Assembly (NCBI RefSeq): GCF_026151205.1
Contig: NC_087073.1
Location: forward strand, 19,682,837-19,746,836
Length of the DNA: 64,000 nucleotides
Direction: 5' to 3'
Source of the DNA: Bolinopsis microptera
Taxonomy: Eukaryota > Ctenophora > Tentaculata > Lobata > Bolinopsidae
Part shown: positions 17,547 through 22,813 of the stretch, piece by piece
Layout: each line of letters opens with the position of its first letter
How positions within the stretch are numbered: position 1 is the stretch's first letter
Translations under genes and position numbers: made by a program
Notes under the pieces: generated by a model
What the model was told of the DNA's origin: nothing
The model's database searches: none
The model's input: only the letters and a program-made list of their open reading frames with translations

Positions 17547-17587
17547 TTACACTTGTAGGGTTTCTCTCCGGTGTGAGTCCTCATATG
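17547..17587 (-). pseudogene. 3' remnant of the zinc-finger gene Z1
   Basis: On the minus strand this reads CAT ATG AGG ACT CAC and on through the TGEKPYKC linker, exactly the last finger of the array genes. The rest of the gene resumes at 21421, on the other side of the RAG1-like element. The last five bases at the junction, ATATG, are repeated at 21421-21425. Confidence 0.85.
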
Positions 17588-19671
17588 CACACAGGTGCTT
17601 GGCGCAGTCTGTGAGGTTATCATGCTGATTGCATTTTCTGGACAACTGTATCCTGTACCGTCTCAAGAATTTGTTTGCAGATTCTATACCTCCTTCCGAT
17701 AGAGTTCCCAGCCCATAATTGTCATTCAGGGAGACTAACTCCCAAGAGTGTCCAAGTAGTTTGTGGACTGTGGGGGACATCTCACAAACAGGACGTGGGT
17801 AGGAAGTTAAGAAAAGCCTGTAGGTTTCTTTACAAAAGGCTTCCAGCTCATCCACCTTTGAGTTGGATAGCTTCCTAGTGCTACTGACAACCCTCAAAAC
17901 AACAGCTACTCTCACCATAATCGCCCTCAATTTGTCTCTTCTTTCTTCACTATCGATCAATTCCAGAAGTAATTCTCTGACATCTCTTTCATACAACAAC
18001 CTCCTGGCAACATTTCCTGTGGTTGTTGTTCCACTATTACCAGTACTATCAGGAAATGCCACTTTCAGTCCTGTTTTTTCTTTCATGTGGGCCTGAACTT
18101 TCAACTTGGCATTCTTTATGAACTGGACATCCCTCATGCATACACTTTCACTCCAATGATTGACTCCAGCAATTTCATGGTACAGAAGTTTAAGCAAAAA
18201 ATCAGTGGACCTCAGTAGCATGTGCAAGCCTTGGACAGATTCTATATCTTTTTCTACAATGGGAGCTCGTTTTTGTCCAAATCTTGTGCTGTAGTCTCCT
18301 TTCTTGCTTTTTATTTCACCTGTCAAAGGATCTATATCTAGATTTTCCAATAGAGCCTTATTTGTCTCGAGAGATCTCGTGATGCGAAGCAAATCCTCAC
18401 CAATGCAAGAGACCTCGTGTGCTTGGTCTAAGGACAGGTGGCAAAGGTCACAATAAGCACCTCCCATGCCAGACACTGCATTTGCTGCTTTTCTGTCTAA
18501 TGCTGAGATCCGTATAACAACATTGAATTTGATTGCATGGTCATTCACAATGACACATATCTCCTCCAGCTCCAATTCAGCCATTTCCTTCGTAACTGGA
18601 CCATACAATCTCAATCGTTCTATTGTTTCCTTTCCTAGTTGCAATATCAGAGGTCTGTGTGTATTTTGAGACTGTGGTTTGGGCTGCACCCAAACCTCCT
18701 TGCCATTTACTCTCAGAAAAATGGGACAAACCATTGCCATTGTTATGTTGTTAGTTTCTTCTGACCCCTTTTGATTAAAAATGCAATGCCCACCACTCCC
18801 ATCAAAGCCAGTCTTATAAACAATTTCAACTTTTGATCTAGCAAGCTCCGTAAAATCCAATTGCAATGTACTTAACAGACGTTCACTTGTCATTTTGATC
18901 ACTGGCAACAAGGGATATCTGATACCATTGTAGGGTTCATCAAGTTTTTGTGGTTTTGGAGTAATGCTTGAATTGAAAGTACTGACACGTTCATACCTGG
19001 GAAGTACTTGATACCCAAGCTCAGACTTTAAGATACCACGGGCTTTAATGTAGGGCACCTTACCAACCTGCAATGCTGACATCAAGAGGGAGGCTGCTGG
19101 AACAGTTATCTCGGATTTTGTCATGGGTTTACCATGACTAACAATTGAGTCTGCATACTCAGCAATATCCTTGTCCTTCTGGTATGCAATTCTACTCAAA
19201 AGCAATGCAGCAGCCTGTAATACAGATATATGTCCTCCATTTCGGCAAAGGAAATCATATCCTTATACAAGGAATCCATCCTAATATTTTGACGATGTTT
19301 TATAACATGAAGGATGTGCTTCCTAAATTTCTTAGGAGCTGGGGCCTCACTGTCTTGATCATCAGCTCCATCATCTTCATCATCACTCATGTCAATCAGC
19401 ACTTTGTCAGAGAGATCACTAGTGTAAAATGGCTCAGTCCATTCAGGCTCTTCATATCTGTCCCTCTTACTAGAGGTAAGCTTTTTTCTCTTCTCACGTA
19501 TTTTCATGAGCTCTCTGAACTTTTGTCTGTGAGTTTCCTCATCAAATTCCAGCTGAAAAAAGACATTGATCTCCAGTGAAAAATCAGTTAATGAAGCTTT
19601 TTTGTGCTTGGTGATGGTGCTTGTGAAAATTTTGTAGGCTTCCAATTTTGTTATGCTGTGAACTCCCATGG
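17547..19671 (-). CDS. RAG1L: RAG1-like transposase (Transib/ProtoRAG type), one frameshift
   Basis: A DDE transposase related to the V(D)J recombinase core. Residue numbers are for the 552-residue frame that begins at 19205. D135 in GFDGSGGH, D237 in SALDRKAAN and E504 in TLSEGGIESANKFLRRYR match RAG1 D600, D708 and E962. YCDLC (252-255) and HKLLGH (481-486) match the RAG1 zinc ligands CTLC and HKTLAH. KPQSQ...RPLILQL, SEERRDKLR and GNVARRLL also have counterparts in RAG1. Upstream coding (to about 19671, MGVHSITKLE) is in another frame. Restoring one G in AAGGAT near 19262 would join it to GYDFLCRNGG, so a 1-nt deletion is likelier than an intron. The C-terminal 13 residues and stop come from zinc-finger host sequence, so the normal tail is absent. 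No RAG2-like Kelch gene is present. Probably inactive. Confidence 0.88.
17583..17587. repeat. Target-site duplication, left (ATATG)
   Basis: ATATG directly before the element start matches 21421-21425. Intact paralogues read CCTCATATGTTTCTTGAG here with a single ATATG, which proves duplication of 5 bp, the length made by Transib and RAG transposition. Confidence 0.88.
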
Positions 19672-20482
19672 ATGAGTGATAACATGAACGTGAACTTTCC
19701 TGTGAAATAGTGATGAGATAAAAGTCATGTGAACATATTACAAAATACATATAATTTGATTACAATTTGAAATGAAATCAACACACTTTAGATGTTTGAA
19801 GTACAATTATCTGAATTAATGTTAATTGTTATGATCACAATATTTCATAACTGAAATAACCTTATTTACAGCTTTGTTGTGCTTGCCGGTGAAAGCAATT
19901 GCTGGTCACAGAATCATTGAGTATTAAATGAACCCTCATCATACCGCACAGCTGTTGGACTGGCCACCACGGAATGATGGGTGGCCAACCCAGAAACATG
20001 TCTCAATTGTTGATAGAAATTAAAACTCCATTGTATAAAACTATATAGTATTTCACTGTGTTTAACATTGGATATGATGATTCAACCTAAATAATTTCAA
20101 ATCGATTGGAAATGGTCAAAGAATGATCACAAATAGTGGATTAAACTCCTGAAAGCGCGCGCGCTATGTGTGTGTGTTTGCGGGTGGGGGAGCATTGAAT
20201 TGGCTTCCTTTTATATAAATTTGATCAAAAAACACCCTTTAAAACGTTCTCTGATTGTATTATCGCTAGAAAAGATCATTTTGCACAGAATTTCACATTA
20301 AACATCAATTATGGGGATATAAAGGGTCCGCGTATGAAAATTTTGAAAATTCTGAAAATTCAAAATATCGAAATAACTTTGTTTGTGATGACACTGGAGC
20401 TCTGAAAATGTCATAAAACGACTTTTTGGGCCAAACAACCCTCAAGAACAGTATATATTGCCAATCAGACCATTCATTCATG
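19672..20482. other. Non-coding 5' part of the RAG1-like element
   Basis: A 3' splice site (CTATTTCACAG on the minus strand, near 19700) suggests a further upstream transposase exon, but I could not identify one. The stretch includes a short GC/GT-repeat patch near 20155-20180. Confidence 0.45.
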
Positions 20483-20519
20483 CCTAAACTATCATGACCC
20501 CCCTTCGCGGCCCACTGTG
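20483..20519 (-). repeat. Internal second copy of the element's right end
   Basis: On the minus strand this reads CACAGTGGGCC, then 12 extra bases, then CATGATAGTTTAGG. The terminal copy (21394-21420) has the same parts in the same orientation but only AC between them. The block therefore lies 10 bp further from the heptamer in the internal copy. Confidence 0.8.
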
Positions 20520-20566
20520 TGTGGCTAGACTCTGATCCTGTACTAAATGCTTTAGTAACAAACAAT

Positions 20567-20680
20567 ATGCCTACTTGCGAAGAGTGTAAGATTAAGGGGC
20601 ATAGCTATCGCTACTGTCCAAAAAGATACGACACTGTATTGCAGCACGATGATTCTTTGGTGGAATCTTTTTTTGGCTAA
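20567..20680 (+). CDS. Short frame with one CCHC zinc knuckle
   Basis: A 37-residue frame beginning MPTCEECKIKGHSYRYC. The spacing C-x2-C-x4-H-x4-C is exactly that of a retroviral-type zinc knuckle. The frame is open upstream to about 20498, so it may be the last exon of a longer gene. It lies on the strand opposite to the transposase, within the element. No other part of a gene was recognised, and function is unknown. Confidence 0.35.
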   Translation: MPTCEECKIKGHSYRYCPKRYDTVLQHDDSLVESFFG

Positions 20681-21384
20681 TTTAAGTGCGCTGCCAGTTT
20701 TTACAGTTTTGTGAATTAAATGTTGAAAATGTTTCCTTGTCTTTAATGAGTGATTTTTATTTTTAACTTATTAAAAACTAATTCAAATTTAAAACAAATT
20801 CATTCATAGTTATTAGCAATTTAATACACACTTTACTTGAATTCATTGTATTCTTTCTGTATATTGACTGCTTATATAGTGCCGCGCCAGGAAAATACAC
20901 CAAAATGAGAGCAAACTGGGGATTTTGAAAAAGTCATAAAATGCAAAGCCAGATCCAGCCAGAACCATTCTTGGTTGCATTTGTTAGGAAATTGTCAGTA
21001 CTTAATGATAAAAGTGGTTTTTAGTGGGCACTAGAAGGCACTAACAACTATTCCTGGTCTTGAAACTGTGCAAAATGTGAAAAAGAGGGTCTAAATTTGC
21101 CTCTGCACGTAAATTTTTCCTAATCAAGAGGCATGATAAGGCCTATTTCACCAGAAAGATCATCCAAAACTGTTCTAGAAGGTATTAAAATAATCATTAA
21201 ACCTTATAAGGCCATTTTTCTGAGACACAGGCATTTAGTGGCCATTTTCACTGCCAAAATTGTCTATATTTGGCGCGCTGCCAAAACTCAACATTTGAAC
21301 ATTTTTCAATTCGGTTTTTTGCACTTTATGTGTATATCTATTTACTAGGAGATGAGATAAAGAAAATGGGATTCAAAGAAAGTC
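20681..21384. other. Non-coding right part of the RAG1-like element
   Basis: AT-rich with no recognisable protein. Short motifs such as AAGTCATAAAA and GCGC-GCTGCC resemble sequences left of the internal end at 20483, hinting that this part arose by duplication of an element arm. Confidence 0.35.
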
Positions 21385-21420
21385 GATTTTTGACCTAAAC
21401 TATCATGGTGGCCCACTGTG
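21385..21420 (-). other. RSS-like right terminus of the element
   Basis: Read inward on the minus strand: heptamer CACAGTG (21414-21420), a 20-nt spacer, then TCAAAAATC (21385-21393), which matches the nonamer ACAAAAACC at 7 of 9 positions. The heptamer match is exact. The nonamer match may be chance in AT-rich DNA. Confidence 0.55.
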
Positions 21421-22209
<789 letters not shown>

Positions 22210-22813
22210 GACAAATTTTCCTGGATAAATAACTGATTAATAAAATAAAAACACAGAAACTATCCAAATTCAAATAACTAAATCTTTAAAATTACCAGTG
22301 GGTATAAATAAATGGAATAGTATTAAATTATAATATTTAGACCACGCTTAGACATCCATATTCTATCAGTACCATGCAGCAATAATGCAGTTAATATATG
22401 TCATATCATAGTTATATAATAAAAATAACAAATAATATAGATTGTGGAAAAACGATAAATTTACTAATTTCTACTATTGAGACAAGATAAAATCAGTGAG
22501 ATTCAATTAATGGTTAGATAATAGATGTACATATCAAAGATTATGATTGTTTCCTCATTTATTTGTGCAATAAACTGCAAAATTCTTTTCTTTAAATCAG
22601 AAAAATTCATTTCAAAACTAGCTCTAAAAATTTGTGGAAATTATTTCTAGACTATCAATGCAATCATTGATCATACCTCGTTGTTCAACTAATAATATAA
22701 AAGTGGAAGTAAACTGACATCCTTTACCCGTGAATACGCTGGTACCTATCTAATAAAATGTGACTGATCAGAACAAGTATAAAAGTTGTTATGTGAGAAC
22801 ATTCCTGGAAATT
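22210..22813. other. Conserved zinc-finger gene spacer (empty site)
   Basis: About 600 bp repeated between all neighbouring zinc-finger genes. On the minus strand, TTTATCCAG/G lies 12 nt before the Z1 ATG (a 3' splice site), and AAATAAATG near 22560 is the likely poly(A) signal of the upstream gene Z2. It reads GACCACGCTTAGACATCC without insertion, which makes it the empty site for the LINE and MITE found in other copies. Confidence 0.7.

Follow-up and report, generated by a model that had tools for sequence, protein, structure and literature searches.

A probable internally inverted Transib copy in Bolinopsis microptera and the paired short- and long-spacer ends of its relatives

A transposon from the ctenophore Bolinopsis microptera bears on the question of how RAG came to require a 12-spacer signal together with a 23-spacer signal. 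The element occupies positions 17588-21420 of a 64,000-nucleotide stretch of contig NC_087073.1 (the whole stretch is called the window below). PMC8289069, PMC8355894, PMC7204232 and PMC4411706 are cited here from excerpts. Asymmetric bipartite ends are described for RAG (12/23 spacers, heptamer CACAGTG) and for ProtoRAG (27/31, heptamer CACTATG) (PMC8289069), and the recognition of asymmetry has been attributed to RAG2 (PMC8355894). Among insect Transibs, a few are described as having ends of a 12/23-like kind (PMC8355894), and invertebrate RAGL systems have been suggested to be little sensitive to asymmetry (PMC7204232). Known Transibs encode one protein (PMC4411706). Subgroup I of these elements is defined by CTT1, the alpha11-alpha12 region and asymmetric ends (PMC9435367). 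HzTransib, which we read in the same paper as a Subgroup II member, makes a 5-base-pair (bp) duplication (PMC7204232) and, unlike the window's family, has symmetric ends (PMC8289069). Ctenophores are already known to have Transib-like proteins, those of Mnemiopsis and Pleurobrachia being placed in the published tree (PMC9435367), and the order given in its legend suggests that both belong to Subgroup I. We find that the window element very probably derives from a single-gene ctenophore Transib of the Subgroup I kind (Tao et al. 2022, PMC9435367) and is a dead copy with an internal inversion.

Positions 17588-21420 form one RAG1/Transib-type transposon of 3,833 positions within a degraded copy of a zinc-finger gene. 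On the minus strand, an open frame (17550-19262, with 17589-19262 inside the element) matches the Pfam RAG1 profile with E 2.7e-13. Compared with Protein Data Bank chains, this core frame matches best 6pqn (1.3e-18), listed as a DNA-mediated transposase, then 6b40 (1.9e-16), listed as RAG1L, and then vertebrate RAG1; we take 6pqn to be HzTransib and 6b40 to be lancelet ProtoRAG. The ranking is unchanged for a profile of 18 sequences including the window's, which scores 205 bits with 6pqn, 128 with 6b40 and 96 with vertebrate RAG1. These matches agree with the initial annotation, which had described a RAG1-like transposon. The catalytic triad that it placed at D135, D237 and E504 of a 552-residue frame corresponds to D154, D256 and E523 of our 558-residue frame, with a shifted start and identical spacings of 102 and 267. 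Both reported zinc-ligand pairs (CDLC and HKLLGH) and the SEG...FLRRYR block (SEGGIES..FLRRYR) are present as well, and the window copy has the DDE core with CxxC and Hx4H that characterizes the Transib superfamily.

Comparing the window transposase with HzTransib, the two share the DDE core, the Hx4H pair and a block that reads SEE..RNK..FRRFR in HzTransib. However, the distance from CDLC to LHMLLR is 73 residues in the window and 66-71 in the homologues measured (16 of 17), whereas the corresponding CxxC to LH distance in HzTransib, counted on the profile alignment, is about 31 residues against 66-73 in the window clade. By its length, this stretch fits the zinc-domain feature of Subgroup I. 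Moreover, the window encodes a C-terminal zinc knuckle, Cx2Cx3GHx4C, of the CTT1 type that is characteristic of Subgroup I. The knuckle occurs in 12 of the 17 first-round homologues, including P0004 with one extra residue, and is missing from P0003, P0011, P0014, P0015 and P0017, the first four of which end before it in the alignment. No knuckle is seen in the aligned part of HzTransib, which ends at residue 469 of 497.

The best protein relative of the window transposase is LOC134813500 of B. microptera itself, in whose genome a protein search gave at least 43 matches, counted exon by exon. One relative (L059) keeps both ends and measures 3,927 bp. It has a TATCT duplication, and the annotated protein P0001 spans the two open frames that make up its single gene. 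A distant relative (L063; 31% identity, tblastn E 1.1e-27) measures 4,348 bp and has a TGGTG duplication. In addition, shorter elements with the same ends of about 900, 1,110, 1,260 and 1,444 bp are present. Mean identity between copies reaches 97% for four copies of the 1,444-bp kind, 97% for ten of the 1,110-bp kind and 89% for four of the 900-bp kind, so that some of the short elements are young.

All of these elements are bounded by two kinds of end. The right end of the window element, CACAGTGGGCC at 21410-21420, carries the exact V(D)J heptamer CACAGTG, as the initial annotation had noted for one terminus. End A consists of CACAGTG, 6 bp and a 13-bp box; end B consists of CACAGTG, 16 bp and the same box. 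The box varies by family (CATGATAGTTTAG, CATGCTATACTAG, CAGGCTATATTAG, CATGCTAGCATAG, CAGGCTATAATTG or ..AATAG), and within each family the A and B boxes agree at 12/13 or 13/13 positions. The 6/16 spacers are found in five families and one sub-family, and L063 has spacers of 9/18 with CTGGAAA(G/A)AATCA. With one chosen end pair and 2,000 shuffles per family, no shuffle matched the A/B layout in any family. Judged by sequence, the ends resemble a 12/23-type signal pair: each element has one end of either kind, and the spacings between heptamer and box differ by one helical turn.

A search of the genome for copies of the end recovered the 11-mer CACAGTGGGCC at 125 sites, against 39 for the reversed control; some sites are simple tandem repeats instead of ends (L073, L074, L078). 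Extended end patterns gave 91 A and 102 B sites, with 0 and 0 for the reversed controls. Opposite-facing sites within 8 kb were paired, using 100 of the 102 B sites, and every pair (76/76) consisted of one A and one B end, with 0 A+A and 0 B+B. The 15 A and 24 B sites left unpaired include the window's two, and part of them belong to elements whose other end is too changed for the pattern (L011, L012, L024). An exact 5-bp duplication flanks 39 of 40 elements checked, the last matching at 4/5 positions; this count leaves out the window copy and three odd short elements (L072, L100, L101), whose duplications match 5/5 by eye. These elements have the CAC-starting inverted ends and the 5-bp duplication expected of the Transib superfamily, and the asymmetric ends expected of Subgroup I.

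The window element is likewise flanked by exact copies of ATATG, confirming the 5-bp duplication first reported. Once joined, the two flanks form a zinc-finger frame that has a single ATATG. The window contains 47 copies of the sequence GTGAGTCCTCATATG, of which one is at the left junction of the element and 46 are elsewhere; a doubled ATATG in these uninserted zinc-finger copies would speak against a target duplication, and each of the 46 repeats has a single ATATG in the 45 bases compared. The proposal that the element was caught inside a host gene holds insofar as a zinc-finger copy flanks it, but that copy is itself already broken: from 21395 to 22236 it is spread over three frames, and the right-flank part of the joined frame contains a stop. 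Window positions 17573-54135 hold a series of C2H2 zinc-finger gene copies that closely resemble one another.

The left boundary does not bear out its annotation as an element terminus, because the CACACAGGTGC at 17588 belongs to the coding sequence of the transposase and is no terminal repeat. The second real end is internal (CACAGTGGGCC, 20509-20519) and has the same facing as the end at 21420. The minus-strand frame ends at DCAKHL on meeting ATATG; it continues on the plus strand, where 20522-20680 encode WLDSDPVL..CEECKIKGHSYRYC..FFG and a stop. Full-length relatives run from ..DCAKRLW through ..NSDPV.. to the terminal knuckle, and the C-terminal piece, which has no Pfam match by itself, aligns with WVNSDPVI..FFS of P0001. 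The gene pieces are thus on opposite strands and complementary, without overlap, and end B adjoins the C-terminal codons. The same-facing ends, the complementary gene pieces and the ATATG flanks are all explained by one inversion of 17588-20519. The N-terminal frame (nothing over the cut-off in a Pfam scan) is separated from the core frame by a frameshift, so the copy is dead.

A degenerate but genuine left end at 17588, with a cryptic heptamer CACACAG and one-ended transposition, would agree with the exact ATATG beside both 17588 and 21420 and with the match of CACACAG to the heptamer at 5/7 bases. We consider it highly improbable and rejected 17588 as a terminus, since a complete end B at 20484-20519 faces the wrong way and is directly followed by the codons with which the interrupted frame resumes; one inversion accounts for end B, the split frame and the duplication together. 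A truncated second element inserted in a nonautonomous one hardly deserves more credence. The end-A side and the end-B side do each match the 1,444-bp nonautonomous family, but the gene pieces jointly make one protein with no stretch duplicated between them, and the stretch showed no more than two ends and a single duplication, so that a nested pair was rejected as well.

The junctions of the inversion bear on how it arose. The inner junction reads CACTGTG-TGTG-GCTAGAC, and in our reading the extra bases are CA at the left junction and TGTG at the inner one. The breakpoint at the element end falls exactly on the heptamer edge, at the border between duplication and heptamer, while the internal breakpoint adjoins a CACAG that has the strand orientation needed for a signal. 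It is improbable that an assembly error flipped part of an intact element: such a copy was met only once among the surveyed ends, as a misjoin might predict, yet misjoining would not be expected to add bases at the two junctions or to place a breakpoint at a heptamer edge to the exact base. An inversion without transposase, through microhomology between the CACAG of end B and an inverted CTGTG in the gene, is a more serious alternative, though still an unlikely one. Inverted CACAG/CTGTG matches are present at both breakpoints; however, a simple exchange would leave no extra bases, and one breakpoint lies exactly on the duplication/heptamer border, 1 position in 3,833. From the junction sequences, the relic inversion looks as if it had been cut at the heptamer, presumably by the transposase. 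After insertion, the transposase may have cut end B of the window copy, and the freed segment would then have been rejoined in reverse at the CACAG-like site within the element; this rejoining would have left the two bases CA at the left junction and four bases at the inner one. Hairpin opening in V(D)J joints leaves palindromic copies of flank bases, and the CA could be such a copy of the flank's TG.

To place the transposase, a tree was built from 34 rows: the window, L063, partial sequences of three references, and the 29 of the 49 found proteins that are 540 residues or longer. HzTransib, RAG1, RAG1L and two sponge rows are among them; the tree is unrooted, with the root drawn at the midpoint only. 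Mouse RAG1 and lancelet RAG1L (2 rows) separate from the other 32 rows, the window among them, with 100/100. The window groups with P0001 and P0002 (97/88) and adjoins LOC134813500. HzTransib, mouse RAG1 and L063 are on long branches, and the placement of HzTransib and L063 is unsure. The core domain is RAG1-type as first annotated, but falls outside the RAG1/RAG1L pair. Relatives of the transposase clade also occur in the glass sponge Oopsacas minuta (P0035, P0042). RAG1L/RAGL membership was rejected on this split and because no linked RAG2L gene, the mark of RAGL elements, was recognized. By eye, the window element, L059 and L063 have one transposase gene each (open frames of 60-70 residues or more), and no second gene was recognized in L059, although it keeps both ends. 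Seven frames that were scanned had no Pfam match at 0.1; small exons could escape these searches. The Pfam RAG2 search of the genome gave 0 matches, but the control genomes gave no signal either, which leaves this zero without weight. The absence of a RAG2-like gene, singled out in the initial annotation, stands but is no oddity, since Subgroup I Transib features make it the rule. Taken together, the domain features, the ends and the tree fit the published Subgroup I Transibs, and the element is well supported as a new Transib superfamily member from a ctenophore, one that shows Subgroup I features.

The likeness to Subgroup I comprises a single transposase gene, a RAG1-like core, a zinc-domain stretch of RAG1 length, CTT1, asymmetric ends and a ctenophore host. 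The main text of PMC9435367, on which this comparison is based, gives no spacer lengths for Subgroup I, whereas they are 6/16 and 9/18 here with a box that changes jointly at both ends. RAG1 and ProtoRAG RAG1L share with the window the catalytic triad, the zinc pairs and the 5-bp duplication, but they lie on the other side of the tree, are partnered with RAG2 or RAG2L, and have spacers differing by 11 bp (RAG) or 4 bp (ProtoRAG) instead of 10. AanRAGL of Aureococcus has asymmetric bipartite ends of 4/13 bp, a 9-bp difference like that of the 9/18 spacers in L063; however, it has RAG2L, and its box sequences differ (PMC9435367). In the titles and abstract openings surveyed, mostly of papers outside subscription journals, neither a 6/16 layout nor such an inversion was found described. 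What appears new is the one-helical-turn end layout with strict A/B pairing and without RAG2, together with the putative heptamer-cut relic inversion.

In the mechanism that we propose, the transposase would bind one A and one B end, cut at the heptamer to leave blunt element ends and hairpinned flanks, as in RAG and Transib, and insert through target cuts staggered by 5 bp. It may distinguish A from B by their spacers, which differ in length by one helical turn. We suggest only tentatively, at somewhat less than even chances, that a RAG2-free ctenophore transposase enforces a short/long-spacer rule and that the window copy records a RAG-style inversion, like hybrid joints with palindromic bases. 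Several points weigh against our reading of the element and its family. HzTransib is on a long branch, its position relative to the window clade being unsure, and the fit to Subgroup I is to the published description, with the Mnemiopsis and Pleurobrachia sequences of PMC9435367 outside the comparison. Through shared descent, the 76 pairs amount to about six independent families, five of them alike or closely related, and the kinship of L063 is drawn from tblastn, its frames having no Pfam matches. The internal breakpoint is only weakly heptamer-like, as 0.8% of element positions have a CACAG edge no more than 2 bp away and 2.4% a CACA edge (junction included). Moreover, palindromic copying does not fit the four bases added at the inner junction, a 4-bp instead of a 5-bp overlap is an imperfect fit to target attack, and this is a single inverted copy among the surveyed ends. 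If the tentative suggestion of a spacer rule and a RAG-style inversion is true, both V(D)J-linked hallmarks would predate RAG2 recruitment and would still be readable in a living early-branching animal. In many such RAG2-free elements, some of them young, with the exact RSS heptamer, a short-spacer end is paired with a long-spacer end, so that an ancestral spacer rule can be tested directly, using a single protein and a pair of short DNA ends.

Table 1 Features of the window element and its flanks (window positions)
Feature	Positions	Strand	Remarks
Target duplication ATATG, left copy	17583..17587	.	Single ATATG in empty-site reading
Probable left inversion junction, ATATG-CA-CACAGGTGC, no terminal repeat	17588..17598	+	Homologous coding ..DCAKRLW.. 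in P0001
Segment read as inverted: end B followed by the N-terminal part and the core of the transposase	17588..20519	-
Transposase core open reading frame, 558 residues to junction	17589..19262	-	D154 D256 E523, CDLC, HKLLGH, SEGGIES..FLRRYR
Transposase N-terminal part, other frame	19199..19759	-	By eye like N-terminal frame of relative L059
End B: CACAGTG, 16-bp G-rich spacer, 13-bp box CATGATAGTTTAG	20484..20519	-
Transposase last 52 codons (20522-20677) and stop, original orientation	20522..20680	+
Zinc knuckle CEECKIKGHSYRYC, Cx2Cx3GHx4C, CTT1 type	20576..20617	+
End-A region common to 1,444-bp nonautonomous family	20884..21420	-	88-94% identity, 4 copies compared
End A: CACAGTG, 6-bp spacer GGCCAC, 13-bp box CATGATAGTTTAG	21395..21420	-
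Target duplication ATATG, right copy	21421..21425	.

Several other elements of the genome carry unusual arrangements. Two long elements with these ends, L009 (5,976 bp) and L010 (7,436 bp), were considered as autonomous copies and rejected, as they have no match to the window transposase and are enlarged nonautonomous elements; their insertions contain open reading frames of 1,073 and 1,234 residues that are reverse-transcriptase-like by eye. At L072:351-368 (G000:C9:1164750-1164767), an 18-bp palindrome, CACAGTGGGCCCACTGTG, with TACCG on both sides consists of two fused ends with the duplication kept. L100:94-123 (G000:C5:22329393-22329422) is a 30-bp remnant of end B and a bare inverted heptamer, with CACCG on both sides. 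At L099:90-250 (G000:C3:2278539-2278699), the start of end B is present three times in tandem, 63 and 68 bp apart, with ACCTTG before each. Finally, a 907-bp element is nested in an element of another family at L106-L109 (G000:C11:13830330-13833604), and matching 5-mers flank each of the two.

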